Source of the DNA: Sipunculus nudus
Taxonomy: Eukaryota > Annelida > Sipuncula > Golfingiida > Sipunculidae
Length of the DNA stretch: 64,000 bases
Direction: 5' to 3'
Assembly: GCA_026874595.1 (NCBI GenBank)
Contig: CM049306.1
Coordinates: 93,797,642-93,861,641 of the forward strand
Position 1 is the stretch's first letter. Each line of letters begins with the position of its first letter. The notes under the pieces were generated by a model. That model did not search any database, was not told where the DNA came from, and saw only the letters and a program-made list of their open reading frames with translations. Below are positions 8,601-48,516 of the stretch, in pieces. The translations under genes were made by a program, and so were the position numbers.

Positions 8601-11600
8601 GATCAACTGGTTTCAAATTTTTGGTGTTAACAGACAAATGCTAACAAAAACATGCTGTGAAAATTAAATCCACAGTACTTACAGGAAAAAAACGTGCCAT
8701 GGTCAAAGTTGGGCAAAATTTAAGGTACTAATTTTTTATTTTTGTTAATATTTTAAAAAATTTAAAAGATTTTGATCTAATTTTGGGTATACAATTTAAT
8801 TTTGAATAATTAAAATTATATTACTGGTAAAAAGTCCATAGCTTTAACATGTTTTGTGTTAAGTGATCAAATATCTTTCCTGATTTTTTACAAAATGCAT
8901 TATGTTTGGGCCTTTAACTTTTTTAAATTATATAATACAGACATAAATTCTGGAATGTACATAGGAACTATATAGAGGAATATTTATGGTAAATATGAGG
9001 AAAAACAGATGAGTGGTTTTGATATTAGGCAGTCCTAAAGTGTAAAAATAGGTTTTTAATAAAAAATTGAGGTTTTTCCTTTATTTATCAAAGGAACGAA
9101 TTCACAAAGACCCAGTTTTCAGCTTGGTAGGAGATCTTGGGGACACCTAACATTATGCCGAATTTGGGATTCCTAGGTCTTACAGTTTCAAAACGTGCCA
9201 CATCTACGGACAGACGGATGGCACGACAGACGGACGGATGACAGACAATGGACCACGACTATAGCTCAGATGACTTAAAGTCAGCTGAGCTAATGATAGA
9301 AAGCTAATTCTACAACACTGTCACAGTCCCAAACTGAAATTGAACTCTGGAGATATAAATACCTTGCTAGAATTAGAAAAGTCAGCATTAAACAATGGAG
9401 GTGGTTTCCTTCACCAAAATAATCATTAAAAAAAACACCCAAAAATTACATCTACACCATAGGGCTTTCTTGTAAGGTGCATTTTTCTCACATCATTTTG
9501 TGATAATAAAAATTCCCATAATACAAGTGAATAGACATAGTTTAACTGACTATGTGGTTCACGTACCACGACCATATTTGGGTTTATCCCCGGCTGCATC
9601 AGTACAGTCTCAAGTTGCATCCTGAAGGCGTTGTGGTTCAGACCTACAGTCAATGTGACCAATTACAAAGCTCTGCATTCATATTAAAACTAAACCACAT
9701 GAATATTTAAATTTGTCAAGTTAATATTCATATATCCATAGAAAACTATGAGATAAAAACTGAATTAATATGAAAACATTTTTTACATCAGTTCATAATT
9801 TTGGTAGAATATGAAAATTCTGCCATGGCTGTTCCTATAAAACATGGCCTCTGATAGATTAAAGAGCGATAAACTCTTGCGTCACTGTTTTGCAGCCAAT
9901 CAAATGATGTGACACATTAAATAATATAGATGTACTAACGTGTAAGTGGTTCTTATTCAGCACCTTTGCCACACATTTTTTTAATGAGTAATTGGAGACT
10001 CAAATCACTGATAAACACATATCAGGTCCACTTAGTTTCTCACTTGCTTAATTTAATGTTTTAACGAAATCTGTTCATAGTTCAAAAGATTCTAAAAAAT
10101 AATCTGATTCAAAGATTTAAACAAATAACTTGATTAATAAACTATAATAAAAGACAATGAAAATATGAAAACCTGCAAAAGTATCACTGAATTTTCATGT
10201 AAATTTCTAATTACGGTCCATGTCATGGTATTCAAATTCTCAAAAGAGAAGTTTGATCGTCTTTGAAAATTGATCTCCATCTCACCAGGAACCACTACGA
10301 TTGGCACAAGAAATATTGGGTTCTTCTCCAAGGACTTGTCCACAAGCGGAGCAGGGGTCAGGGGGTCATCAATGTTGTCAGCTGCAACAATAAACCCATG
10401 ATACATCTATGGGAGCTATGAACCTGCCTGTGTGGTGGTTATATGTTGCTCTCAATTTTTCACTCACCACAGCTTGCTTTAGCAAGGTTTGCTGGGTTTC
10501 ACCACCAGGTTGCTGGCAAAGGGCCAAGAACATAATCAGACCAAGGAGAGCAGGTAATGCATTGCACATGGTACACAGAGTTTGACACCCCAGAACACTG
10601 CTCTCACTGGTGTGATGACACCTGGTGGTGAGACTCAACAACCCTGCTCAAGCAAGCATTGATTAAACAAAAGGTGATTGCCGCTTTTAACTACTGCATA
10701 TGAAGTATAGAAGGAGCCACATTAAACTCTTTATTGACAGCAGATGTGAAGATTTAATAATCGTCTTTTTTTTACTGTACAGATTTACCAGGTAAACCCT
10801 TTCTCCTAAGGTCCAGATTAAGTATATTTACAATATTTACACATTTAAACTTGTCTTATATATAAGATCCTTCACTGTTATAAATAAATACCAACATCAA
10901 ATTTTCAGCATTTACTGTCAGGTTTGGGAAGTCCATATTAATTTATCACATAGATTTGAAGGGTACCATGAATATTTCCCCATGATGAAGCAACACGTAA
11001 ATATTTGACTGTGATTGTCTCACCACTACAGAAGACGCCGTATCCATCGTTCTTGGCACAGAACGCTCGTCTCTTCTCGTTCTTGTTGGCCATTGGATCG
11101 GGCTTCACCTTGGTGCCTGTCACTGTCAAACAATCAGCAAGACATAAGTGATAATACTCAAAGTGATAATATATGTCCCCCTCCCCATGATATATGTCAC
11201 TGGATTGAGGAATATTTACACTCTTTTTCACAAGTTTAGTGGTTACAATTAGTTGATTTGTTTCTGTGAGGGGAGTCTTTGTTGAGTTTAATGCATAGTT
11301 CAACAACCAGCATATGAAGTATGTCAACAGCTCATATTGTTTTGATTAAGCATTACCAGATTCACAGTCCTCTGTTGTAATGCTACCTTAAATCTTAAAA
11401 CCTACATAAAACCACAGGCCCTTGAAATCACCATTAAAACATGTCTAAACTAGAATACGGGTAGTCGACAAGCGACTACGTGTATCCGCCTAAATCAGAG
11501 TGGAACGGGTGAAGTGAGGCATGGATTAGGTGGCAAGGGGAAATAGAGTGAAGTGTTGCATATTAGCATGGATGTCTGCAGCCAAATTGTGTATGAAGGT

Positions 11601-14600
11601 TGCCCCCCCTACCACAAAATCCAGAAAGCCGTCCCAGTTGTATACATATGCAAAATTTAAGGCAGATAAGTCAAACCACTACATGTATATGAGTGATTTT
11701 AGCCCGTGGCAGACAATCAGATGGACGCTGAGCAAAAATGGTTGCATGTGACGGCACCAGTTTTGCGTATGATAAAGAGCTATGTGAGAACTATACACAT
11801 GCAAAACTTTGGCCCAATCGGTCAAACGGTTCCAAAGATTTGAGCTTGGATGTCTGCTGCATAAACTAGAATGCAGGTGGCTCCACCTGTCATAAAATCA
11901 AGAGAGCTGTCGGGGATGTATAAACCTGCAAAATTTTAGCCAGATTTGTCAAACCACTGCTGAGATATGAGTGATTTTATCCCATGGCAGACAAACAGAC
12001 AGGAGCTGTGCAACAATGGCTGCAGGTGGCACCACTAGTTTTGCGTATGTTATAAAGCTCTCCAAGGGCTACATTTGTGCAAAAAAATTTTCCTGATCGG
12101 TCAAACGGTTCCCGAGATATGAGCTTGGATGTCTGCCGCGTAAACGTGAATGTAGGTGGCGCCACCTGTCATAAAATCAGAAAAGCTATCCAGGATGTAT
12201 ACGCATGCCGAATTTCAGGTGAATTAGTCAAGTCACTGCAGAGATATGAGTGATTTTAAGCTGAAAACATAGTATCTGCAAAACTCTGTTTTGGCAGATA
12301 CAATTACCCCTATTTCACCTTATGCTACACATAGTTATATAAATACACAAGGTATGAAATGACTGACGGAGAACCCTGAGGGACCTGCTGTATAATCTAT
12401 CCATTTCCAACCTACCGACAGCATGGCAATGGCACAAACTTGTGCACATCTTGCATGCACATAAAAATGAACAATATTGTTCCATCTGACACAAAACCAA
12501 CTCGTGTTACTGTTCCTGTGTGTGTTTAATTAGCTGTTTAATTAGGCTGAGCGGACAGCATTTGAGGGTCTTCGACTCCATGCAAGTCAGCTTGGCCCGA
12601 ACAGCTTCCAAGCACCATCGTGAGATTGTTATTCAGCCCCACACTGTCCGCTCAGTCTGATTAAACAGCTAATTATATGCGACCAGGAACTGTAACGTGA
12701 GTTAGTTTTGTGTCAGACAACACCATTTGGTTCAATTTTATGTACATGCAAGCGATAAGTTTGTGCCATGCTGTCGGTAGGTTTGAAATGGATAGTTTAC
12801 ACAGCAGGTCACTCGGGAGTCCTCCATCAGTTGTTTCATACCTTGTGTATTTATATTACTATGTGTAGCATAAGGTGAAATAGGGGTAATTTAGACATGT
12901 TTTAATGGTGATTTTTAAGGGTCTGTGATATAACACAGAGAGCATCAGAAGCTTTACTGTTATATATAAATATAACAGGGTCAGAAAAACACAAGTGTAA
13001 TGTGGGCCAATTTTGCTCCAGATAACATCAGCCACCATTAACCCACCAGGGGCTCAGATATGTATAACAATATAAATTCTGTGATATACATCTGCACAGA
13101 ATAGTGGTGTAGTTGCCATGCAATCTTGCTCCATCATACCTGAGTGAACAAACCAGCTCAGTTGCTGGGTATGTTATCATAATATGCCGGAGAAAGTTAC
13201 TGCACATGACATTACAAAATATAACAGGGGTGGATACAGGATTTTAGAAAGGGGGGCCGGGTATGGAAGGGGATTATGGGACTGAGCATCTAATCCCACA
13301 ATGTAGCATCTTTTTAGAAAATTTAGGCTGTAATGGTGCAAAATCTGTTTTTTGGTATCAAGCACTTATTTTTCTTAGTTTCCAGATTTACAAAAAAAGG
13401 GGGGGGGGGGCCTCTAAATGTGCCCTTGTATAACAATGTCACTACATGACTGTAGAACTTACATGTGACTGGTACACATTGTCTCTTGTCTATAGGTTTG
13501 GGCCATGAGCTTCCCGGGCCAGCAAACTCCACCTGTAAAAAAATATATCATCACCCAGTCAATGACACTGGTGGTCTCATAAAATATAACATACCTAGCC
13601 AGTAAAAACAGATGGTCTCCTTACACATAACTTCACACAGTCTGTAAAAAACAGCTGATCCCATAAAACATAACATACCAGTTACACAGTAGGTAAAATA
13701 TTTGTTCTAAATAAGTAATGAACATCTCACTATTACAAGTGTGAACTCAAGATTACATATTTGTTGATAAGGGGAAAACATTAACCATATCAGTCACATC
13801 AATACTGGCAGGATGTTAGATGAAAACTTAATTGTTTCTTCTTTAAATAGATGTCTTTTGTTATCTGTAGGGTTTTTTTCAGCTGTGCTGTATTTATTTA
13901 ATTATCTAATTATCCATTAATTATCATTTTGTTAATGTATATTTGTATATCCTCATTTTGTATGCAGTATCTTATCTTTTTAGTGGAAACAACTTACAAG
14001 AAAAAAAAGTTAATACATAATCCTTGTTAATTTACTGTTGATATGTTAAACACATGCAAGCATACAACTGTTAACAGATTAATAACAGTTGTACACAGAG
14101 GCATTAGTACATTTTAATAAATCTCCCAAATAAGGAATAATTTTTTAAAGTACAAACAACATATGCTACAGGTAATGTGTTATAGACATGCAAAAATGAC
14201 ATTAAGGGAAATCATATAATCATAAACAAATATATGGATGTAATACAAGCACATATCTGTGACATGCAGGTGTAATGTTAGTCTCTTCTTGATTAAAGTG
14301 ATAACATTAAGAAGGTTTAATCAACTGAATGTTAACTCAAATTCCTGGTGTCATGGTATTTGAGTGAGTGATCCCAATGCGGAAACATTATGATATCATG
14401 TTAGCTAACCAATATCTTACCACCCTTTCTTAAATATTAAATGTCAGCATACAATGTACTGTGACAATGACTTCAAATACTATCTTCATGATTTTTTAAA
14501 ACAATTTCATTTACAAGGTTCTGTTGCAGTAAGAAACATGCATGAAAACATCTTTGCCAAAAATTAGAAATTTTGTCAAAAAATCCTCAACACTTCTGAT

Positions 14601-20600: not shown

Positions 20601-23600
20601 ATCAAATATCTTTCCTTATTTTTTTCAAAATGCATTATGTTTGGGCCCAGAACTTTTTTAAATTAAATAATACAGACATAATTTCTGGCATGTACATAGG
20701 AACTATATAGAGGAATATTTATGGTAAATATGAGGAAAAACAGATGAGTGGTTTTGATATTAGGCAGTCCTAAACTGTGAAAATAGGTTTTTAATAAAAA
20801 ATTAAGGTTTTTCCTTAATTTCTCAAAGGAACGAAGTTGCAAAGACCCAGTTTTCGGCTTGGTAGGAGATCTTGGGGACATCTAACATTATGCTGAATTT
20901 TGGATTCCTAGGTCCTACGGTTTCAAAACATGCCACATCTACGGACGGACGGACGGACGGACGGACGGACGGACGGACAGACGGACGGACGACGGACAAT
21001 GGACCACGACTATAGCTCAGATGACTTATAGTCAGCTGAGCTAAAAATCAATGTCTGAAAAAAACCTACTTTATAAGATGTTTAATCAATTCTATGTTTG
21101 TGAGGATTTTTTCCTGTTTTCCTTTACTTATATATCACAGTTAAAAAGAAAAAAAAAAATCCTGAAAACTAGGAAGACACAGTGATGTGAAACAACAGTA
21201 TAACAGCTTAATTTGCAAAAAGGCAGAGGGATTAATGGTAATTTAATGGTCATGCTCAGATAAGAAAGTCAAAGGTCAGTTGTGCTTATGTCTATTCATA
21301 AGATAACAGCAGGAGAGACAGGAAGGCCGGCCGGTCACCTGTTCTATGCCTGAGAATCCCGTTAAGCCTTTCTGCCCAACAAAACCCCAGACATCACGGA
21401 AGTTGAACTTAGTCAGCTGACTGCTCCCCAGGTCCTGGAACAGCTTCTTGACATGCGCATTTGTACTGCGGACACGAAGATACCGTTATTAATCAGGCAA
21501 TGTGTTAGTCATGAACCAATCACATTAGTATAAATCACTATAAGCCAGGTGAGACATTATATCACACCTTATATCTGAAAGGTAAAAACTCATATCAAAA
21601 TCAGCTGTTTATGTCATCATTAAAGTACAGTCAAACCCTGTCTCACAATCACTTCACTTTGGTGACCACCTCAAAACAATGACCACTTATTCATGGTCCC
21701 AAATCTTTTGTTGCTCTTTATATAAGAACTTGTTTAGATGACAATATCATAAATAGGACCACTTTATGGTGATCTTTATTTTGAGGTTTTTTACTTTATA
21801 AAAGAAAACCTGTAATGGCACGGCAATGTTATGGTGAGCAATAATATTAAATTTACAGAAGTTAATCAAGGTTGTCCCACTGAGGGGACAAAGTATGAAC
21901 AGTGACTGAATAGAATATAATCTAGTGCCTTATCATTTTATAAATAGTGGTTCTATTTTTGTTCTAATGTTATTTACCATAATAATAAAATTCAATTTAT
22001 TCTATTCTTTTTTTTTATTAGGGTAAAGTGACTTTTTGAGGAACCTCTTTGCTAAGAAATAGGTATCTATCATGTCCTTTATGAACAGCAGCATCCCTTT
22101 CCCAGTCCTCATCCTTAACACCTGACACTTACTTTTTGGATGCATCATCATGGGTTACAGCTGCAACTATTTCTCCTGGGTTAATCATCTCCAGGAAAAT
22201 CTCCAGGTTACTTGCATCTGTAACAAGCATAGCTGGGTGTGAACTTATTAGCATTCCTCGAGTCTAAGTTTAAATCATACTGGGTGACCAGAAAACTGAT
22301 TTATTACACCCCTGCCAGGCAGGAAGATGTTATATTTTTTCCCTGGCTGGTTGGTTTTGCATTTAATGTTATCAACTGATTTTAAAAAAAGTCTTGTGGA
22401 GGGTTAGGGTAACACCTGAGGAACAATCCCTTAAAGATGCCCATTCACCAAACTTATGTTTAAAGGGGCCTATTCACCTTTTTTTTGAAAAAGAATTTAT
22501 GTGATTTCTGGCTTCCTCTGTGTTTATTTTAATGATCTAAGGGTAATTCTGGTTGTGAAAAGTTTTGCAGCCTTCATAAGTATGCAGCCTTCATAAAGGA
22601 TGTGTGAACATGTTTATCAACAACGTGTTGCAATCCACCATTTGCAAAGCTCTGGCTTATCTGAATAGCTGCTTGATGCCCCTGTTAAAATTGTTTTATT
22701 TTGGTGGGCTCCAATATATCATAAACATGCTGATATAAACAAAACAAGCAGCCTGTGTGCAGTGATATCCACTTATTCTGGCCTATTTTTTTGTATGAAA
22801 GCTTCAGGGGATTACCTTTTGTTTATAAAGGTCAGATAGGTGATTAGGCCCCTTTAATTTTTTTTTCAGGTAATGGGATCACCACAATATATTTGAATTC
22901 AAATTATAATATAACAATGTCAAAAGGGCTATTCTTTTGTTCCCAGTAGAGGCCACCCTATTCACTGGTATAAGCAGCAGTGTTTGTTCAGCATCTTACC
23001 AGGTGAGCCTCTGTTACTGAAGCAGTAGACTGTGTATAACACATAAGAAGCTTGGTTAAGGGATCTGGAGAGTGGGGGACAGGGTTCAATATAGTCATAT
23101 ATACAACAAAACAATCTAGATATCAGCTAATCAAAGTGTTGCCTTCATCGAGACAATGAACAGTAGAATCTTGAATATCAGATTCATTTGGGGGCAATAA
23201 AATTTGTTCAGATATTTGAGGTTTACCATTTTTTTCCATGTATGTACACTATTACTTCAGGTGTACATGAGCATATCAAGGTTTGATTCACATATAACAA
23301 TCCAGTTATGTTATCTCATCAGAACATATTTTTTCTAAATTTTATATTTATTTAAGAAAAGCGATCTATTTACAATAATTGCAATCTATTATGGAAATAT
23401 GCATACAGCTTACAAGGGTAGCATTTATATTCAATGAATTGACTGTCTTGCTCAAATCCGTCACAATGAATGTTTGCACATGGCACGCTTTTAAAAGATA
23501 AGCTAACTAGTGCTCCCATCTGCAGGAAATAATCAAAACAAGGCTGACAGTGTTATGTCTGTACACTTACAGGTGATTGGATGAGTGCATGCATGCGCTG

Positions 23601-26600
23601 TGACGGCTAAGGGACTAAAGCACTTAAAAACACACAAGCTTAGTTAGACACGCTGATCTGGCAATGTATTATTCTTCACTGAGAAGTGAATGCCACTCAG
23701 GAAGTAATCCTGGGAGTCACATTCCATATTTTGGGTAAAATATATTTTCAAAATATTCTTTTTCTATACTTTTAGGTTAATAGAGGTAAATTTTGGTTCC
23801 TTAATTTATATTTTGGAAAAAAAAAAGATATTCAAGATATTGATATTCAAGGTTTTTTCTGGATAATATGATTTCCTTGCATGTGCATCCATATTCATTT
23901 GTGATCAGTTAAGTAAAAATACAACAATTTAATCAATAATGAAAGAAATCGACCTATCATTAATACAATTAATTAATCAGCACACCTCTAACAGACACCC
24001 ACACCTACCTTCTGCATAAGTATCAAAATGACCAACTTTATATAATTAATTAATCAGCACACCTCTAACAGACACCCACACCTACCTTCTGCATAAGTAT
24101 CAAAATGACCCACTTTATATAATTAATTAATCAGCACACCTCTAACAGACACCCACACCTACCTTCTGCATAAGTATCAAAATGACCAACTTTATATAAT
24201 TAATTAATCAGCACACCTCTAACAGACACCCACACCTACCTTCTGCATAAGTATCAAAATGACCAACTTTATATAATTAATTAATCAGCACACCTCTAAC
24301 AGACACCCACACCTACCTTCTGCATAAGTATCAAAATGACCAACTTTATATAATTAATTAATCAGCACACCTCTAACAGACACCCACACCTACCTTCTGC
24401 ATAAGTATCAAAATGACCAACTTTATATAATTAATTAATCAGCACACCTCTAACAGACACCCACACCTACCTTCTGCATAAGTATCAAAATGACCCACTT
24501 TATATAATTAATTAATCAGCACACCTCTAACAGACACCCACACCTACCTTCTGCATAAGTATCAAAATGACCAACTTTATATAATTAATTAATCAGCACA
24601 CCTCTAACAGACACCCACACCTACCTTCTGCATACGTATCAAAATGACCAACTTTATATAATTAATTAATCAGCACACCTTTAACAGACACCCACACCTA
24701 CCTTCTGCATAAGTATCAAAATGACCCACTTTATATAATTAATTAATCAGCACACCTCTAACAGACACCCACACCTACCTTCTGCATAAGTATCAAAATG
24801 ACCAACTTTATATAATTAATTAATCTGCACACCTCTAACAGACACCCACACCTACCTTCTGCATAAGTATCAAAATGACCAACTTTATATAATTAATTAA
24901 TCAGCACACCTCTAACAGACACCCACACCTACCTTCTGCATAAGTATCAAAATGACCAACTTTATATAATTAATTAATCAGCACACCTCTAACAGACACC
25001 CACACCTACCTTCTGCATAAGTATCAAAATGACCAACTTTATATAATTAATTAATCTGCACACCTCTAACAGACACCCACACCTACCTTCTGCATAAGTA
25101 TCAAAATGACCAACTTTATATAATTAATTAATCTGCACACCTCTAACAGACACCCACACCTACCTTCTGCATAAGTATCAAAATGACCAACTTTATATAA
25201 TTAATTAATCAGCACACCTCTAACAGACACCCACACATACCTTCTGCATAAGTATCAAAATGACCAACTTTATATAATTAATTAATCTGCACACCTCTAA
25301 CAGACACCCACACCTACCTTCTGCATAAGTATCAAAATGACAAACTTTATATAATTAATTAATCAGCACACCTCTAACAGACACCCACACCTACCTTCTG
25401 CATAAGTATCAAAAGGACCAACTTTATATAATTAATTAATCTGCACACCTCTAACAGACACCCACACCTACCTTCTGCATAAGTATCAAAATGACCAACT
25501 TTATATAATTAATTAATCTGCACACCTCTAACAGACACCCACACCTACCTTCTGCATAAGTATCAAAATGACCAACTTTATATAATTAATTAATCAGCAC
25601 ACCTCTAACAGACACCCACACCTACCTTCTGCATAAGTATCAAAATGACCAACTTTATATAATTAATTAATCTGCACACCTCTAACAGACACCCACACCT
25701 ACCTTCTGCATAAGTATCAAAATGACCAACTTTATATAATTAATTAATCAGCACACCTCTAACAGACACCCACACCTACCTTCTGCATAAGTATCAAAAG
25801 GACCAACTTTATATAATTAATTAATCTGCACACCTCTAACAGACACCCACACCTACCTTCTGCATAAGTATCAAAATGACCAACTTTATATAATTAATTA
25901 ATCAGCACACCTCTAACAGACACCCACACCTACCTTCTGCATAAGTATCAAAATGACCCACTTTATATAATTAATTAATCAGCACACCTCTAACAGACAC
26001 CCACACCTACCTTCTGCATAAGTATCAAAATGACCAACTTTATATAATTAATTAATCAGCACACCTCTAACAGACACCCACACCTGCCTTCTGCATAAGT
26101 ATCAAATGACCAACTTTATATAATTAATTAATCAGCACACCTCTAACAGACACCCACACCTACCTTCTGCATAAGTATCAAAATGACCAACTTTATATAA
26201 TTAATTAATCAGCACACCTCTAACAGACACCCACACCTACCTTCTGCATAAGTATCAAAATGACCAACTTTATATAATTAATTAATCAGCACACCTCTAA
26301 CAGACACCCACACCTACCTTCTGCATAAGTATCAAAATGACCAACTTTATATAATTAATTAATCAGCACACCTCTAACAGACACCCACACCTACCTTCTG
26401 CATAAGTATCAAAATGACCCACTTTATATAATTAATTAATCAGCACACCTCTAACAGACACCCACACCTACCTTCTGCATAAGTATCAAAATGACCAACT
26501 TTATATAATTAATTAATCAGCACACCTCTAACAGACACCCACACCTACCTTCTGCATAAGTATCAAAATGACCAACTTTATATAATTAATTAATCAGCAC

Positions 26601-29600
26601 ACCTCTAACAGACACCCACACCTACCTTCTGCATAAGTATCAAAATGACCAACTTTATATAATTAATTAATCAGCACACCTCTAACAGACACCCACACCT
26701 ACCTTCTGCATAAGTATCAAAATGACCAACTTTATATAATTAATTAATCAGCACACCTCTAACAGACACCCACACCTACCTTCTGCATAAGTATCAAAAT
26801 GACCAACTTTATATAATTAATTAATCAGCACACCTCTAACAGACACCCACACCTACATTCTGCATAAGTATCAAAATGACCCACTTTATATAATTAATTA
26901 ATCAGCACACCTCTAACAGACACCCACACCTACCTTCTGCATAAGTATCAAAATGACCCACTTTATATAATTAATTAATCAGCACACCTCTAACAGACAC
27001 CCACACCTACCTTCTGCATAAGTATCAAAATGACCAACTTTATATAATTAATTAATCAGCACACCTCTAACAGACACCCACACCTACCTTCTGCATAAGT
27101 ATCAAAATGACCCACACGCACCACATCCTTCTTCTTTGAATCGATGATGACAATGTTAAAACCTCGACCTCCATCATTCAGTCCTTTTGCCATGACACTG
27201 AAACAGAAATCATACACACACTGTCTATATTACATGCAAAATGAAACAATTATCATTTAATTTCATCATGATCATCATCTCTTATTGTAAGTTTATTTGA
27301 AAAAGCAACAGGTCAGTATTAAATATATTATATAACAACTAACAAATAAACAAACATGGTGCAGTGGTCCCTGCTTTAAGAGATCACCCTTTACATTTTG
27401 TTTCAGTTCCATGAGTTGAAAATATGACCCAAGATGGCAGTGTCTGAGTGATAATATTTACCAATTCTCAAGTTCATAATTTGTTATATTTCTTTTATGC
27501 TGAATTAAATTTGAAATAAGAATTTTTTTTATTTCAATATGTGTTATTCATCAGAATTTTCCACATGAAGTGTAAGTTGCCCATCAATATCAGTCCACTT
27601 GGCAGTTAAATATCTCAATAATTTGCAAACCAAATCAAAGTGAAAAGGCCATATTATACATCAGGTGGGAGTGCCATCTGTCTGTGAATATGCTTACCAA
27701 TATTCTAAATTACATGCAATAACAGCCCTGTTATCCCACTATTTAGTGTCAGCAGTGCCTAAATAGTCTTACAAAATGGTCTTACGAAGTAAGTGAATAT
27801 TCAATTGGGCCAAAAGGTAGGTGCTGATTGTTGTGTTTGGTAGATGATGAGATTTTAACTGTAAAACTAACTATGAAAGGGAAAAATGGTCCTTAACAGT
27901 AGGAAGTAACTTTAAACTGGGGGGGGGGGGGGGGGAGGGGTCTCTCAAACCAGGGACCACAGTAATACTTAAAAGAGCAGATGCTGGTTTTCAATTAAGG
28001 GATATTTATTAATAAAGTTTCAATTATATAAACCTTACATTGAAACTTACTTCAACTGTGAGACCTTAGTCCAATCAAACTCAATCTTTTATACTCTTTC
28101 TAATGAATATTTGATATTTAACAGAATACTGTGCATATATTTCCTGAAATCAGAAATCATCACACAATATCCTGAATGATTACTCACTATTTGCCATTGA
28201 CACATATCTTGGGTCCCTCAACATTTTTGTTACCCGAGTACAGATGTACCGAGAACCCACTCTCCCCGCAGTTCTCCTTCACTCCACAGTTAACCAGCTC
28301 ATCCCCGACCTTGACCTTCTCTTTTTCTTTTACCACCTGCGGTGGAGGAGGCTGATCCATTTCGTTGATTTTACCCACTGTAAAGTGTAACAGATATTAC
28401 ATGAATTTTGCAAGTATTTTGTCAAAACTATTTGTCTAAATTTTTTTTAAATGACTTATGAAATCATGGAAAAGTCCCTCTTGTGATGAATTAATTCATA
28501 TATGTCCTATACAGGTAACTGAGAATGGTAAGACCACAACACTTGAACCCTCAAGAAACACCGACAATGGAGAACTTATGAAAGGTTATCCTCCAGAAAT
28601 GACACCAAACACTGTGTTTTTATGATTGTCCTTGTAAATAAAGGTGCCCAAAAAACTGACAACATCAAATAGAATTTATTATCTGTATCTTTCTGGTAAT
28701 GATGCGTAAATTTTTAATTTCTTTCTTTGTTAAAATCCTTAGAAAAAAAAGAGTATGATACATATAATTACCTGGATAATTTATACATCTTCAGATAATT
28801 AACCAAAATTGTCAGTCTGCATGCTTCTGGCCATGGCTACGTAAAACCCCAGTGTGAATTTTATAATATTGAATACCTGTAGTTAATTAATGATTGATAA
28901 TTAATTTAATAGATTCTGCCTTACTGGGTATTGATACGCATCCACTGATGTCAACTTGCTCAGAGAATTCCTTGTCTCCTCTCTGGTTTAACTATAATTC
29001 AGAAACAATGGTTAATATTAAACACATATCTAGCAAAATCAGTTTTAAACAAACATGTTTCAATTAAACATTTTAAAAACATGTTTTTCATAAGTAGTTT
29101 TAAGAATGATCTGCATCAGTATTCATTCACCCTGAGAGTATGCTACTCATATAGAGTAATTGATAGCGCCAGATCGGCCCTCTGACATTATGGCCAGATT
29201 ACTGGCTTGCCACAGTGCCTGGACATCTAACTCTGAGGATCGCATTATAAGGCCGGATGAGGATGCAAATATTTTCGTTATTTTTGACAACACCTTATTG
29301 CTTACAAGTATCGTGTCACTTCAAATAAACCCACTAGATCTTTTAATAAGTTTCTTATCTCTCCAATGACACCTACCATATGTGTGAAATATTCCGTTAT
29401 AACCCAATATATTCGTATATTGTTCTGCATGTTTTGGAGATTTCTGCCTGCGGTCTGCCTGCTGACTGTATGTGGAGAGGCGGTTATAAAGCGTGGCGAG
29501 GACTTGCAGGGTGGTTCTAAATTTGGCTTGTGTCACAACTCAGTAGGAAGCCCTAACTGAGTCGTGTTTGTCATGGCTAAGTAATTGATAACAAATAAAG

Positions 29601-32600
29601 TAAACTCTGTCCACCTGATTTTGAGTGCTTTTTTTGGTGACCATTCCGTCACATCATGAGACCTCACAAATCTCTTTCTCAATACAAAAGATTACAGTTT
29701 TGTCATTAAAACCTTAATCATCCTAATGAAAAAGTAAAAAAGTTGTGAAAATTAGTAATATTATTCAGTTTTCTGATGTTTCCTGTTAAATTACAGGAAC
29801 TATACAACACCACTTTAAATATTATTTTTTCCCATTCCCACATTCCCACCTCTATACATATAAGTTTGGATATGGCTCCATAAAACTAATACTAAAAAAT
29901 AGAAAGGTGGAAAGATTAAGTGGAACAGAGTATCTTTGCTTAAGAATCACATCTGACTATAATGATTCTAAAAATACACACCTTCTCAATGGCTGATCCA
30001 TGGGTCAGCCCCCTCTGGCCAACCATAGCAAATGCATCCCTAAAACCCAGCCTGTCAACGGCCCCGCTACCATACTTCCTCATCCAGGCCCGGCCATCTT
30101 CCTTCAAACTATAAATTAAAAAAAAAAAAAAAATGAGCTAGCATAAAACAATCAGACTAAATGATAAAATAAATAACTCAATCTTCCTCAGACTATATAA
30201 TACAACTGATAATCTGAGGTAGTATATGACAATCATACAATATAAGAAAATACAACATCATTCTTCTTTACACTAATTAAAAAAAAAAACCTTATCTTTC
30301 TAATAAAACAATAATAAATTTATAAATAAATAATATAATAACAATAACATATGTATTTATATTTACAATGTTAATTACTTTGTAACAATAAAGTGACACT
30401 TTTTTAATCTAAACATGGAAATTTTTGTTTTATCTTTTAAATTAAATTTTTAAGTATTTTTTTAAGAATTTTGACAGAAAATATTAAAACAGATGCCATC
30501 AACTATTGATCATCACATCTACTACAGTTTATTATTTATTATTCATTAGCAATATTTTTGGGGAACTAGATGTAAACTGACGTACCCATTGCTGGCTTCA
30601 TCTTGGCTGGCTGCCAGTATTAGGTGGTTATTTTGGACACCCATTTTTAAAAATCTCACCAGTGCTGAATCTAAAAGTAAAAATCAAACTGTCAAATCTT
30701 GATGAAACATATATAAAGTACCACTTTAATATTAGCACCCATAGCAGTAACAGAAAATATTCAAAATCTTAATAATACACTTAGTAAAGTATGATTCCAG
30801 AATTTGTGTATCATATAGTGTTAGTCTCTTTTTTGCTCTTTCATAAAATTATAAATGCAATGGAGCTTCAAAATAATGGACACTGAAGGTATTGGACTTA
30901 GAGTGGTGCCTGTATAAGAGAAATGTATGTATGATATAGTGAGTGTATTAGAAAAGTTTCAAACACAGCGATCCTTTGTATTTATACCTCAAGTGTTTGT
31001 AATAGAGAGGTGACTGTATTAGCAAGTTTATGGTCCTCTACTTATCACATGGTCACCTTAAAGTGTCCGTAATACAGAGGTGACTGTATTAGAAAGTTTA
31101 TGGCCCTCTACTTATCACATGGTCACCTTAAAGTGTCCGTAATAGAGAGGTGACTGTATTAGAAAGTTTATGGCCCTCTACTTATCACATGGTCACCTTA
31201 AAGTGTCTGTAATAGAGAGGTGACTGTATTAAAAGGTTAATGGCCCTCTACTTATCATATGGTCACCTTAAAGTGTCTGTAATAGAGAGGTGACTGTATT
31301 AGATAGTTTATGGCCCTTTACTTATCATATGGTCACCTTAAAGTGTCTGTAATAGAGAGGTGATTGTATTAGAAAGTTTATGGCCCTCTACTTATCACAT
31401 GGTCACCTTAAAGTGTCTGTAATAGAGAGGTGACTGTATTAGATAGTTTATGGCCCTTTACTTATCACATGGTCACCTTAAAGTGTCTGTAATAAATAGG
31501 TGACTGTATTAGATAGTTTATGGCCCTCTACTTATCACATGGTCACCTTAAAGTGTCTGTAATAGAGAGGTGACTGTATTAGATAGTTTATGGCCCTCTA
31601 CTTATCACATGGTCACCTTAAAGTGTCTGTAATAGATAGGTGTCTGTATAAGTGAGTCCATTGCCCTCCAATCTACTTTTTATTGTGCCACCTGTATTAC
31701 AGAGGTGCCAAAGTGGTACATGTAATGAGCGGCATTACTGTGGTATGTATTAATTCTGAACACCATGTCACAAACTGATGTCTGTCCTGGGAATTTAAAA
31801 AAAAAACCAAAGTTCTAACTTACCTTCAACATATGTGTCAAAGTATCTTGTTTCTACTATTTTATGTGTCTGATCTGAAAATAAAGAAAAGAGTATCACT
31901 GACAAATGAGTAATAGTAAACACTTACATAAAACAGGTAATTGTAAATAATTAGCATGATTGCATGTGCCATATCAATGAAATGGCAATAGTGGTAATAC
32001 AGTCAAAAGTCCACAGTGTAACAATGGTTAAATGAAATATACCAAAAAAGAAATTAAACCAGATGTGTCGGAACGACACGAATGCCCCCGCCTGGGGCAA
32101 ATTAGAAACATTTGTAAAATTTTGAAAAATTTTTTTAGTTCAGGAGGTGTCTTATGGTCAAAGGTAGGTCAACAAGGGCAAAATGCAAACTCGATCTGTA
32201 ACAGGTCATTATCAAGCAACACACCAAAAATCATGCCAGTATATGGAGGCATTGTGAAAAAAAGTCCATACATGTGCATTTTCCATAAAAATTTCTGTCT
32301 TTCATGAAATTTTCTATGTTTAGGAGCCGTAAAACAATCAAAAGTAGGTCAACCGGGACGAAACGCGAACTCCATCTGTAACTGTCATTATCTGCCCACA
32401 CATAAAAAATCAGGGTGGTATCTGCAGGCATTGAGGAAAAAAAAGTCAGTACATATGGATTTGTTTTGAAAATTTCTATTTTTCATGAAACTTTCTATGT
32501 TCAGGAGCAGTCAAATGGTCAAAAGTAGGTCAACTGGGACAAAACAAGAACTCGATCTGTAACTGGTCATTATCTGCCTACACACCAAAAATCAGGCCCG

Positions 32601-35600
32601 TATCTGCAGGCACTGCGAAAAAAAGTCCATACATGTGCACTTTTTTATGAAATTTTCTATGTTAGAGCACCGTCAAATGGTCAAAAGTAGGTCAACTGGG
32701 ACAAAACGTGAACTCGATCTGTAACTGGTCATTATCTGCCCACACACCAAAAATCAGGCCAATATCTGCAGGTATTGCGAAGAAAAGTCTGTACAAGTGT
32801 GTCATGAAAATTTATATTTTACATGAAATTTTCTATGTTCAGGAGCCGTAAAACAATCAAAAGTAGGTCAACTGGGACGAAACGCGAATTCTATCTGTAA
32901 CTGGTCAATATCTGCCCACACACCAAAAATCAGGCCAATATCTGCAGGCATTGCGAAAAAAGTCTGTACATGTGCATTTGTCATGAAATTTCATATTTTT
33001 CATGAAATTTCTATGTTCAGGAGCCGTAAAACAGTCAAAAGTAGGTCAACTGGGACGAAACGCGAACTCGATCTGTAACTGATCTATATCTGCCCACACA
33101 CCAAAAATCAGGCCAATATATGCAAGCATTGCGAAAAAACGTCTGTACATGTGTATCTGTCATGAATATTTCTATTTTTCATGAAATTTTCTAAGTTAAG
33201 GAGGCGTAAAACGTTCAAAATTAGGTCAACCGGGACGAAACACGAACTCGATCTGTAACTGGTCATTATCTGCCCACACACAAAAAATAAGGCCAATATC
33301 TTCAGGCATTGCGAAAAAAAGTCCGTACATGTGTATTTGTCATGAAAATTTCTATTTCCATGAAATTTTCTAAGTTTAGGAGCCGTAAAACAGTCAAACG
33401 TAGGTCAACTGGGACAAAACGCAAACTCTATGTGTAACTGGTCATTATCTGCCAACACACCAAAAATCAGGCCAATATCTGCAGGCACTGCGAAAAAAAG
33501 TCCGTACATGTGTATTTGTCATGAAATTTCTATTTTTCATGAAATTTTCTAAGTTTAGGAGCCGTAAAACGGTCAAAAGTAGGTCAACCAGGACGAAACG
33601 CTAACTCGATCTGTAACTGGTCTATATCTGCCCACACACCAAAAATCAGGCCAATATCTGCAGGCATTGCGAAAAAAAGTCCATACAACTGTTTGATTTT
33701 GGATTGACGGAAGGACGGACATGGGTAAAACTATATGCCCCGGCCACTTTGTGGCGGGGGCATAAAAATCTGAACAGAAGATAAATTGAAATGCTAGTAT
33801 GTGTATATGTGTTTCTATTTATATATTATTTTTTATTATTGCTGAGTCAAGTAAATTTGTCTTCCAATTCTCCAGAAAATGTTAATGCATGAAGATATGA
33901 AACATTAGTGGTTTTCTTTCAAAGCTTGCATCTTATCTAATGTTTCAAATATTTATAACAATTCAATAATGTGAACATCTGGTGCACATAATCGTTTTGC
34001 TCCTATCAGCTGATAGTATTGTACATACATTATTGTACCCTTAAGTACAAAACCACATGGACCACACAAGATATATATCAACGAGATGCGTGTTCGTGAT
34101 AAGTGTAATATTCAGTTGTCACATTCACTCCCATTGTTGCCTTTTTTCAAATTAGATAGAAATCAATCTGCATTTCAATCCTTTTAAAACGTCATAATGC
34201 AATGCTAAAGAGATGAAATGTGGAACTGATATTTCTATATGTACATCACAGAAAAACATAAGTAGTTCAGGAAATACTGCATTTCTCAACCCCCCCTAAA
34301 CCATACACCCCAAAATCATGACAACATCATGGTAAATATTTATAGTGCAATTCTTGAAAATTCATCAAATTTCTTAGTTATCATGGCTGACAGGTGGCCA
34401 GACATGTATCCAAATAGCTTGACGTCTAGCCTGATGCTGCTATACTATAACATGACCTATCTTTATAACTGTATTCAATGACAAAACCATGAAATATCTG
34501 TAAACACAATGTAGTTCTCATTCATCCTAAGACATATTAGACAAGGATTGCTTCAGGGGATGCATCTAAATTCCATCACCAGTACCTTAACTCAGATTAT
34601 TCTTGATAGAAGTAATAAAAGCTTCCAATATAAAATGAGACAGTTACACATTCTGGTATTTTATATTCTCAGTAGAAAGTAACAGCTTAATTAAAGCTTC
34701 TAAGATATACTGAGAAGGACTCACTGTATTAAATATTATACTTACCGTTGACAACCACAATATTGATGCCTCTATGGTTTTTATCAAGGCCAGGTGCCAT
34801 GGCTCTGTAACAGAACATGTATCACCTGTTATACCACCCCACCAAAAACAATTTTAAAACACCTCAAAGATAACATTCTAAATTTTTCGATATCAGACTT
34901 ATCTTCTTTAAAGTATCACTTCATCATCAACCATGCAAAAAAATCTCTAAACAAAATGTAAATTAAAGCTGAGCTAATTCAGAAATGACAGATTATCTTA
35001 CACTGCATTATAGGATTTCAGAGTATAGTAAGGATAGAAGTAATTTTATGCAAAAAAATTTATTCTTCCAAAATAATATTTTTCTGATATTCACATATTA
35101 TTATTACACAGTAATGATTCATTTCTACACATTTCTAAAACAAATTTTTTAAAACCTGTTTCCAAATGCATATGTGGAGTTACACCTGTTTATAGCAACC
35201 CCTTAGTCAGAAGGTTCAGCCCATAATGTACATTCAAGCGATGCAGTCTGGACAAAAATCAAGGAGATATGGACAATTACAGTTTACAATTACAACAAAC
35301 ACTCTTTTAAATTTAAAACCATTACTCATTACAATTGTTACAATTTTTATCCGTAAGACTAAAATTACAGACATCATCAGTTATTCTACTAATACAACCA
35401 TTACCCTTTACCTAAAAATTAAAATAATTACTTTTACAATTAAAACCATCACTTTTTACACCACATTTACAACTATTGCCATTATGTTACAATTACAACC
35501 GTAACCAGTTTCACTACAACAGGAGACAATTACACTAGGGTCAAATAATAAGTAAGTAATGTGTCATTATACTTACATTATTCCCTAAAAATGACAACAG

Positions 35601-38600
35601 TTGCCTTCACAATTTCAACTATCACCCCTTATACCACATCTACAACTTTTACCCTTTACACTACAATTACAATCATTACCAGTTTCACTACAATTGTAAA
35701 GTGCGACAGGAGACAATTACACAGGGATCAAATAATTCAAGGGGCTCTATCACCTGACCATTATAAACTAAAGGTAATTCCTTGGAGCTTTTATAAAAAT
35801 AGGCAAGCAAACGTGGATATCATCACACACAGGCTGCTTGTTTTGTTTATCAACGTGTTTATAATATGTGGGAGCCGCCAAAATAATCAAAACAAATTCA
35901 ACAAGGGTATCTGGCGGCAAGTCAGATAAGCGAGAGCTTTGCAAATGGCGTTTTGCAACAAGGGACCTCTTGGCCCCTGCATATATGCAACCTACCACCT
36001 TAGGTTACACAGAGGAAGCCAGAAATCACATAAATTCTTTTTCAAAAGGCAGGTGAATGGGCACCTTTAAGTAATGTCAAGTTATACTTACGTATGCCCA
36101 TCAAAGCAGATTGTCGGGGAACCATCTTTTTCTAGCCCACTCTTTACTGCGTAAGGGAATTTCCCTGCAGGACAATCCTGTTTTAAACCGCATTTACCTG
36201 GAAACAAACGAAAAGTGTACCATAAATAATCCAGGTGGACCTGACACCTATTGTCTAAATGGGTGAACACTATTACCGTACCCACTCTAAAAAGTCAGCT
36301 TATTTATAGTTTAACATAATGATGCCACATGACTATCCCTGACTCAGAGTTTTCATGTTTCAATTAAGATGTTTTATGAAATAAAATATTCCAATTTGAT
36401 AAATTATTACTATGAATAAATAAAAAGGTATACTGTTATTTGATATTACAGATAATATATTTCTGAAGTTTTTATGTTAATAAAGCTGTACAAAGGCTTA
36501 ATATTATGCATAATATTATATGAAGCAAGAATATTATTTGTTAATAATATTAAGTCATTTATTATATATAATAAAAATTATTGTTAATCATAGTTATTAT
36601 AAAATTTTAAAACTGGCACTATTTTCAAATGATCATTTTTCAATTATTACCAGCAAACAGTTACAGTTATAAGCTATTATTATGCTAGTACACAAACATA
36701 TATATAACAAAAGAACTGACTAAACTGATTTGATGTACTAAACAAAAATAATGGACATTACAATTACTTTTCATGTGGACTAAAACGTCTTTTAATATAA
36801 CTTAATTCATTGTGCTAACTGAGAACTCATGTGCAGACTAGGTATTTCTCAGGATTTTAAACAATCCCGAAAGATCCTTTGCCAAACCAGTGTTTTGTGT
36901 ATCACCTTTCAGCTTGTCTAATGGCTGTGATTTGAAAGAGCCTTATATAGAATACGTTGACATAGCACAAAGCCTAACTGTATTTGCCAAATCATTGTGA
37001 TCCGTTAGTTATTAAAATGCCATCATACCCTTGTCCTGACAGGGACCATCTAAGGGTAGGGCTTTGTGACTGATTTTACTAAAGGCATTGCCTGGAAAAG
37101 GCTCAGCTTTTAATTATACCTTAATTTTGCATGACACTTTTATTGCACTATCAGCTGATATCTTAATTGCTTAAAACCAATTTGTCATCTATCCTGTCTA
37201 ATTCCCCTTAACTGTTCTGCACTTATCATTTTGGTAACCTATAACCCTGAACAAACTTAAAGTTGAGGTGCATACTTTGTCTTGGTTTTGTGATGAACTA
37301 CTCTTTAAACAGGACCAAGGAAAAAAAATTAAAATAAATAAATAATTACTGTGCTCACAATGATATCACTGACAATGATGTAAGAAAAAACTTCATTAAT
37401 CCATTTTTACAATATTAATTAAAGTCTGCTAATATTAACTGCATGCTGAGATTAAGGGAAACATGCAATCTAGATGGGTCTTGTGGGAGTGTTGTGCTCA
37501 CTTATATTTCTCTAAACATTCCTATGTTGAGCATGGAGATATCCACACTCCTGTCCAGTTGTTAGTAAAAGCAATAGCAACAATAAAAAGTAATGGCTGC
37601 ATTCACATGACTGACTGTTACCTAGAGGTTTCTGCTCAACTTTGATAGCTGCTATCACTTTTGGTCCTGAAATGAATATTCACTAAACTGAAAAACAAGA
37701 CTAACATATGCATAAACATTATTTGAGGGTGGAAGGGTCAGTTTTAAATAGACAGCCCTTCCCTGGTGTACAATCTCCTTTATATGTTTATGATACTTAC
37801 TTTATGAATATTTACATTCGTACATGCTGTTAAAGATTAACAGAAAAACAGTAAACTACATGCAGATCATGCAGGACCATTACATAAAGTTGATAAAGAG
37901 ATGTTTAATGTCCAAAAGTTTTGTAATCTTAGCAACATGGTTAATTGACTGTACTTCTCCAACTAGATTTGAGCTGCTTAGCTTGAATCATTCTGTCATA
38001 AAGCAGAACAGTCAATCAATATGACCATGTTGCATCATTATCTTTACAATTGGCATTAAAATGATCAGAAAGAAAAACCCAGGTCTTTCCTGATTCCAAC
38101 ACAGATGGTGAATATTGGATTCTGGGAAAAAACTCACTGGAAAAGTGTCACAAAATTGAGTAGGAAATAAATTTAAGATTTAAGGGTTATTTTGAATTAC
38201 ATATGTGACTTTTTGCTCTACTCAAATTGTGACTTCATTAAGTGTGACTTTCTTTCCTAAGAAATCCTGTGACTTTATTTCCTACCGGAAATTTAGAATT
38301 TTATTTCCAGTTACTTATTTCCCCGTGACTTTTTCCAGTCATCAAATACTGTTTATGTATATTACTAAAACTGTGACCAATGTACTTAATAATCATGAAG
38401 CAAACAAGCATAACAACCATACTGTTCCCCCGAATGGCATCTCATCAATATTTATCTGATAACATTTGTGTGAACTGAATATGCAAATTATTTTTTAAGG
38501 CACATGTTAATATTGCAAAAGACAACAATCATGTCACTGTGTTATTTAATATGCATAAAAAATATGCATGTCAGCACGATGCACATAATACTTATCTAAC

Positions 38601-47404: not shown

Positions 47405-47492
47405 CTGGAAAGATAAGATATATTATCAGTGTATCAAAGTAAAATTTATATCTTACAAATTCATTACATCTGAAACATTAATGTCATTAATA

Positions 47493-48516
47493 AGCATTAA
47501 TGTCTGCAGCGTGAACGAGAATGAGCTGGCGCCACCTGTCATAAAATCAAGAAAGCTATCCAGGATGTATACGCATGCGGAATTACAGATAATTTTGTCA
47601 AACCACTGCAGAGATATGAGTGATTTTAACCCAAGGCAGACAAACAGATGGATGCTGTGCAAAAATGGCTGCAGGTGGCGTCACCATTTTTGTATATGTT
47701 ATAAAGCTATCCAAGGGCTACATTTGTGTAATTTTTTTTTCCTGATTGGTCGAACAAGTCCAGAGTTACAGGCATGGATGTCTACATCGTGAACGTGAGT
47801 GTAGGTGGCGCCATCTGTCATAAAATCAAGAAAGCTGTGCAGGATGTATACGCATGCCAAATTTCTGGTAATTTGGTCAAACCACTGCAGAGATATGAGT
47901 GATTTTAACCCAAGGCAGACAAACAGATGGACGCTGTGCAAACATGGCTGCAGGTGGCGCCACCATTTTTGTGTATGTTATAAAGCTATCCAAGGGCTAC
48001 ATTTGTGTAAATTTTTTTTCCTGATTGATCAAACAGTTCCCGAGATATGAGCTTGGATGTCTGCAGCGTTAATGTGAATGTAGGTGGCACCACCTGTCAT
48101 AAAATCAAGAAAGCTATCTAGGATGTATACGCATGCTGAATTTTAGGTGAATTAGTCAAACCACAGATGGACACTGTGCAAACATGGTTGCAGGTGGCGC
48201 CAGCTTTTTTTGTGTATGTTATAAAGCTATCCAAGGGCTACATTTGTGTAAATTTTTTTCCCTGATCGGTCAAAAGGTTCCCGAGATATGTGGGTTTATG
48301 TGTGGAAACAGACGCACAAACGGATGCTAGGCAGAGAGGAAAGGCCAGAGGTCAAGGCCACTTGGTTAGGCACCAGTTCAAATGTGACCCGATAATTTGT
48401 GCAAGTTTCAGAAAAATCCGTCCAGTAGTCTCAGAGGAGTTCTCCAGAAACGAACGCCGCGGCGGCGGATCCCGGTCAAAAACAGTATCCACAAAACTTC
48501 GTTTTGGCGGATACAA
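47493..48516 (+). mobile_element. Pearl-like tandem-core element, copy 3 (5'-truncated)
   Basis: It carries repeated cores with TGGCGCCACC and AAATCAAGAAAGCTATCCAGG phrases about every 130-155 bases. It ends with CGCCGCGGCGGCGGATCCCG and a terminal hairpin GTATCC-ACAAAACTTCGTTTTGGC-GGATAC (48485-48514). The 5' hairpin arm is missing. It starts about 90 bp upstream of exon 1. ORFs of 80 to 103 aa in it follow the core repeats and are not genes. Confidence 0.75.

Follow-up and report, generated by a model that had tools for sequence, protein, structure and literature searches.

How is an exon spliced when its end, donor included, has been copied some forty times into the intron behind it, and do the copies serve a purpose? 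This question is raised by a stretch of 64,000 nucleotides from contig CM049306.1 (hereafter the window), in which a FAM3/ILEI-type gene on the minus strand carries a 77-bp minisatellite over the 3' end of one coding exon and most of the intron that follows. Coding continuity suggests that the authentic donor is the outermost copy, and the array is probably a 'mirage', as comparable structures are called in amphioxus, i.e., a tolerated minisatellite that is spliced at its outermost boundary and would have no dedicated function. Arrays astride exon boundaries recur in the same genome, at exons that are confirmed by homology.

Anatomy of the array

The initial annotation had described an exon-end minisatellite of about 41 units, beginning inside the exon and bearing a strong donor in each unit. 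Tandem Repeats Finder (TRF), run on the window, delimits the array at 23963-27112, with a period of 77, 40.9 copies and 98% matches. It holds 41 donor positions, from 27087 down to 24008, at a spacing of 77 bp with one exception of 76. The array opens with the last 25 bases (GGTC...GAAG) of exon 27197-27088, the acceptor of which is TTTCTGTTTCAG, and each unit joins these 25 exon bases to 52 intron bases. The likeness of unit and exon extends over three more bases if one T/G difference is allowed: immediately ahead of the 25 the exon has G, where most units have T and seven of the 39 full-length units have G. At the far end, the last intron part matches the unit for 42 bases. The donor 9-mer AAGGTAGGT (AAG/GTAGGT, the slash marking the splice junction) is found in 38 of the 41 array donors; the three deviant ones, AATGTAGGT, AAGGCAGGT and AAGGTATGT, differ by one base each, one of them by a change to GC. 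The minisatellite is thus real and begins in the exon, and nearly all of its units keep a strong donor.

A search of the 1.43-Gb genome with the 77-bp unit, in a mode that skips very common words, yielded 41 matches, every one at this locus. Nine distinct sequences are present among the 39 full-length units, the mean difference between units is 1.36%, and the consensus is identical to 20 of them. The variants are scattered along the array, one of them being common to eight units located between units 17 and 30. As regards concerted evolution of the units, neighbouring ones proved no more alike than shuffled ones (2977 of 5000 shuffles at or below the observed value), and a young array would give the same picture.

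Pairing with U1 was predicted in a fixed register. The donor at 27088 reaches -11.1 kcal/mol and ranks second among the nine donors of the two FAM3-like modules described below (best -11.2). On the minus strand of the window, 39 of 3,893 GT sites attain this energy and 38 of them lie in the array, so the donor density of the array is not due to chance; the sole such site elsewhere is the real donor of another exon. A genome search for U1 returned at least 42 matches. The one U1 gene that was read has a standard 5' end, and pairing with the array donors is therefore possible, which is compatible, at the level of predicted energies, with the earlier suggestion that U1 snRNPs (small nuclear ribonucleoprotein particles) could bind many of the copies. 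The U1 genes are arranged in two clusters (C6:50.26-50.37 Mb and 88.24-88.30 Mb), in which neighbours are mostly about 2.8-2.9 kb apart. The array also contains, between 23963 and 27088, 40 copies of TATAAA, a weak variant of the poly(A) signal, with a donor copy and GU-rich sequence after each of them, an arrangement that resembles a weak poly(A) site beside a U1 site.

The host gene and its donor

The exons of the host gene are grouped into FAM3-like modules with one ILEI domain each. In spliced form, modules A and B score 76.6 and 84.4 bits, respectively, against the Pfam ILEI model, above its curated cut-off of 27 in both cases, which identifies the host as a FAM3/ILEI domain gene. The array-bearing exon belongs to module B. 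Taken alone it scores 20.7 bits, and the 84.4 bits are obtained when position 27088 is joined to 22217. The alignment of module B with FAM3C (5lc2, E 2.5e-25) runs gap-free across this junction. In module A, a sister donor (after FDTYVE, at 31824) occupies the homologous place with the same phase. When donors 1 to 7 were spelled out, a stop-free frame was found with 27088 only. Reading beyond it meets a stop after ten codons (GRCGCLLEVC), ahead of donor 2, and every inner donor would therefore carry an in-frame stop. As in mirages, the tandem unit comprises an exon part, a splice signal and an intron part, and the host coding sequence is intact with the outermost donor. All of this agrees with the initial proposal that the outermost copy is the real donor.

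The presence of the same intron in sister module A points to an intron that predates the array. Birth of the intron from the tandem array was considered as an origin and discarded, as module A has an intron at the same position and in the same phase.

Table 1 Features of the host gene and its array (window coordinates; the slash marks the splice junction).
Feature	Position	Strand	Details
77-bp minisatellite over exon 3' end and most of next intron	23963..27112	-	40.9 copies
Putative authentic donor AAG/GTAGGTGT, outermost copy	27080..27090	-	predicted U1 pairing -11.1 kcal/mol
40 intronic donor copies	24003..27013	-	37 are exact copies of the 9-mer
Coding exon (VMAKGLNDGG...GHFDTYAE)	27088..27197	-	110 nt, phase 2 in, phase 1 out
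Host intron	22218..27087	-	4870 bp, of which the array makes up 3125 bp
Next exon (ASNLEIFLEMINPGEIVAAVTHDDASK), acceptor CTATGCTTGTTACAG	22133..22217	-	follows the array-bearing intron
Last exon of module B (TNAHVKKLFQDLG...GIEQ)	21339..21465	-	
First exon of module B (GKINEMDQ...ICVNGK)	28188..28377	-	donor AATA/GTGAGT
Module A, second FAM3-like ILEI module	29982..36197	-	exon phases same as in module B
Module A exons	36197-36092, 34804-34746, 31874-31824, 30670-30586, 30108-29982	-	
Sister exon in module A, ends FDTYVE	31824..31874	-	donor GAAG/GTAAGT, no array over the donor

Between 16707 and 36197, a minimum of two full FAM3-like ILEI modules, alike in their exon phases, follow one another in the host gene, and the end of an additional one is located near 16.7-16.86 kb. 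Other minisatellites are present in its introns. A 70-bp array of 9.4 copies (30991-31649), many units of which carry TATTACAG, lies some 175 bases past the module A donor, within the homologous intron, so that modules A and B each have a minisatellite at the same intron position. A different intron contains a 179-bp array of 8.6 copies (32157-33687).

Boundary arrays at other exons

The genome was scanned for three AGGTAAGT at a spacing of 60-90 bases. Match counts in such scans refer to places inside arrays and not to loci, and loci were counted among the approximately 100 matches listed per scan. The donor scan gave 433 + 520 matches genome-wide (953), and its backward control 263 + 458. 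Among the matches listed, 17 donor-array loci were recognized, on C1 and on C2 up to 71 Mb. The 5' side was read for all 17 and the 5' edge of the array is visible in 13; in L042, L046, L047 and L053 the array covers the start of the fetched stretch and hides it. At 12 of the 13 loci with a visible edge, the array starts in an open frame that closes at the first donor, with candidate acceptors upstream. At the remaining one, L038, an exon could not be shown at the array edge despite an open frame of 111 codons. The open-frame runs at the 12 loci extend over 31 to 100 codons (39 or 46 for L041, depending on the frame). Unit length is divisible by three in 5 of 13 arrays, the main array included in the count, which is about what chance would give.

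Homology confirms five of the arrayed donor exons. For three of them, encoding parts of PI4K2 (L040, 8.3e-32), PKA-RI (L050, 8.6e-25) and an ABCC transporter (L045, 9e-9), the homology includes the exon bases that lie in the array and continues to the donor. The other two exons belong to a kinesin-light-chain-like TPR protein (L037, 1.8e-11) and a CRIP-like LIM domain (L043, 2.8e-6). Weaker support points to a PH domain at L041 (9.6e-4, with a Pfam match below cut-off) and to EGF at L052 (Pfam 0.0071, likewise below cut-off). L039, L044, L048, L049 and L051 gave no homology match or sub-cut-off matches that were not relied on.

The corresponding acceptor scan, for three TTTTNCAGG, produced 386 + 88 matches (backward control 323 + 1338), and ten acceptor-array loci were found among the matches listed, all of which were read on their 3' side. 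Two of these arrays end in exons confirmed by homology, namely those of USP39 (L058, 1.2e-15) and MMS19 (L055, Pfam 6.8e-13, PDB 1.6e-9); arrays at exon boundaries therefore affect acceptors as well as donors. By their open frames, L060 and L062 are plausible, with 86 and 37 codons, lengths that 5% and 34% of random places equal, respectively. L054 and L056 are ambiguous as exon-boundary arrays, and at L057, L059, L061 and L063 the array does not lie at an exon visible on the 3' side. With at least seven other exons in this genome that are clear by homology, and with the amphioxus cases of PMC3087553, the initial view that arrays of this kind are uncommon appears doubtful.

Tandem arrays as such are common in this genome, and those bearing donors are not in excess. 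Eighteen random stretches (180 kb) contained 11 arrays of at least three copies, one of them a 10-kb satellite, and the best donor pairing within their units was -7.3 (CAGGTATGT). The satellite, L024 (C4:25.0 Mb), fills its entire 10-kb stretch with a 35-bp repeat in about 283 copies. Within the window, tandem repeats of 270-279 bp with 2.4-2.5 units each, related in appearance when compared by eye, occur at 11560-12258, 47492-48164 and 54664-55366. The open-frame translations of 57.8-58.5 kb and 60.3-61.0 kb are nearly identical at an offset of about 2.5 kb, which suggests a direct duplication.

Interpretation and alternatives

We infer that the array originated by tandem duplication of a segment spanning the exon end and its donor, and that unequal exchange or replication slippage then enlarged it to 41 units. 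Recognition of the 110-nt exon by the spliceosome would depend on three elements, namely the exon's own acceptor, the unique sequence of its upstream part and whichever donor is transcribed first. The 40 inner donors would be treated as intron, and the outermost donor would be chosen because only this copy adjoins the full exon. If the inner donors are treated in this way, added copies would be nearly neutral and the array would be free to grow. A duplication inside an exon would alter the message. In contrast, a duplication spanning a boundary would leave it unchanged provided that the outermost boundary is used, which can explain why boundary arrays persist. The data support tolerance, in that the outermost copy of an array astride a boundary is the one with which the protein is preserved.

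Several points weigh against this account. The use of the outermost donor is deduced from coding continuity. In artificial constructs, identical donors often favour the copy nearest the 3' splice site, the reverse of the choice proposed here. Exons lengthened by one to four units would measure 187 to 418 nt, which is still within exon-definition length, so that leaky use of inner donors is possible. With regard to recurrence, the best frame at random places has a median length of 28 codons, and in a comparison with 20,000 such places no more than two of the 12 loci, L037 and L040, exceed 95% of them. An open frame is a weak exon sign, and homology was therefore relied upon; five of the 12 loci (those listed above as having no match that was relied on) have the open frame as their sole sign of an exon, and L037 has only its last three exon bases inside the array. 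A permuted 8-mer gave 604 + 1087 = 1,691 matches genome-wide (backward control 582 + 549) as compared with 953 for the donor 8-mer, and C1:1-70.5 Mb holds four donor-8-mer array loci versus five for the permuted one. Donor-bearing arrays are consequently no denser than permuted-8-mer arrays and, as acceptor-side arrays also occur, a donor-directed origin is not supported.

In principle, the donors could have been multiplied to some use. Many U1 snRNPs bound along the intron might shield it from premature cleavage and polyadenylation, or the number of copies might tune its retention. The concentration of 38 of the 39 GT sites with strongest predicted U1 pairing in the array, the existence of U1 genes with a standard 5' end in the one read, and the 40 TATAAA copies would all fit such a role. 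We nevertheless consider it improbable. Upkeep of the inner donors was sought in the unit columns and none was found: three of nine donor columns are variable versus six of the 68 others (Fisher p 0.07), a difference that runs against upkeep, while exon and intron parts have 4 of 25 and 5 of 52 variable columns (p 0.46). The one-base-deletion copy is omitted from the exon columns and the last, partial unit from the intron columns in these counts. Moreover, if the array is young or homogenised, its copies would resemble one another even without selection. The AG/GT junctions had also been noted initially for having the form of recursive-splicing points, which would remove the intron in 77-nt steps, and with few exceptions the units do keep AG directly before GT. 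Scored as a 3' splice site, however, the junction reaches -3.8, and AGs within the unit range from -6.0 to 2.6, whereas values of 9.9 to 15.6 are obtained for the nine real acceptors that served to build the matrix. The junction AG is preceded by A; each of these nine acceptors has C or T there. Arithmetic would also permit a 27-nt in-frame microexon in every unit (acceptor AAAG/TTGG), but this possibility was discarded as well, its acceptor scoring only -1.2. These low scores make unit-by-unit microexons unlikely, and recursive splicing can be practically dismissed.

Tolerance of the array could be accompanied by occasional errors, and the two can be true together. Low-rate use of inner donors would produce a ladder of stop-bearing exons of 187, 264 and 341 nt, bound for decay and of mild cost. 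The sequence of the real donor is repeated exactly in most of the inner ones, the first few lie within exon-definition distance, and the same early in-frame stop is common to all of them. Such leakage is conceivable, if on balance rather unlikely: amphioxus Adh and troponin C mirages are reported in PMC3902484 not to give aberrant mRNA, and growth to 41 units together with arrays at exons of conserved genes argues that any cost is small. It is very unlikely, finally, that the assembler expanded or collapsed the array. Assemblies can misstate how many copies a near-identical repeat has, and PMC3087553 reports an amphioxus mirage for which the draft genome assembly was aberrant. On the other side, nine distinct sequences are scattered among the 39 full-length units, which argues against a simple error of copying, and the occurrence of arrays at unrelated exons points to a genuine class, although the true number of units may differ from 41.

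Implications

Tentatively, and with less confidence than we have in tolerance at the present locus, it can be proposed that many conserved genes, such as those for PKA-RI, PI4K2, USP39 and MMS19, have near-identical donors or acceptors arrayed at an exon, in as many as 41 copies, and that the spliceosome reliably takes the outermost of them. If this is true, in living animals the context of the exon would prevail over the strength and number of sites and over their nearness to the partner site, and the copy number would provide a natural dose series, possibly with leakage of decay-bound isoforms in ladder-like steps. Splice-site choice among identical sites has been studied mostly in artificial constructs. 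Natural arrays at exons of conserved genes would make the rule for choosing among such sites readable from RNA sequencing. Boundary arrays would also offer a way for introns to grow quickly without touching the protein. If the host species is not a lancelet, mirages would not be an amphioxus curiosity. Searches of the genome for the mollusc haemocyanin domain and for GFP-family proteins gave no match, but the control genomes were empty in both searches too, so that the missing GFP family is only a weak argument against a lancelet.

Comparison with known systems

Recursive-splicing (ratchet) sites consist of AG directly followed by GT. The unit junction shares this order; unlike a ratchet site, the unit has no good 3' splice site. 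Work by Zhuo et al. from 2007 is said to describe introns born from tandem arrays, by tandem duplication bearing AG/GT. Unlike in those cases, no new intron has appeared here, since module A has the same intron in the same phase without an array over the donor. In human segmental-duplication genes, internal tandem repeats at exon-intron boundaries have been linked to novel introns or varied coding sequence (PMC2812944). The present array likewise consists of tandem repeats at an exon-intron boundary; unlike in the human cases, its intron is shared with the sister module, and it leaves the coding sequence unaltered.

The closest counterparts are the amphioxus mirages, in which exon-intron boundaries of globin, Adh3, troponin C and PGBD5 genes are duplicated in tandem in the manner of a minisatellite, and for which allelic length differences, somatic instability and regular splicing are reported (PMC3087553, PMC3902484). 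In both systems, tandem units with AG/GT signals span an exon boundary, 5' and 3' boundaries are both affected and the host coding sequence is kept. The unit numbers named there for amphioxus mirages are 2 to 7, compared with 41 at a single donor here, and the present genome has further boundary arrays on C1 and part of C2 besides the main one. The array described here thus belongs to the known mirage class and is distinguished within it by its copy number, by the near-perfect copies of its donor and by the further cases in the same genome.

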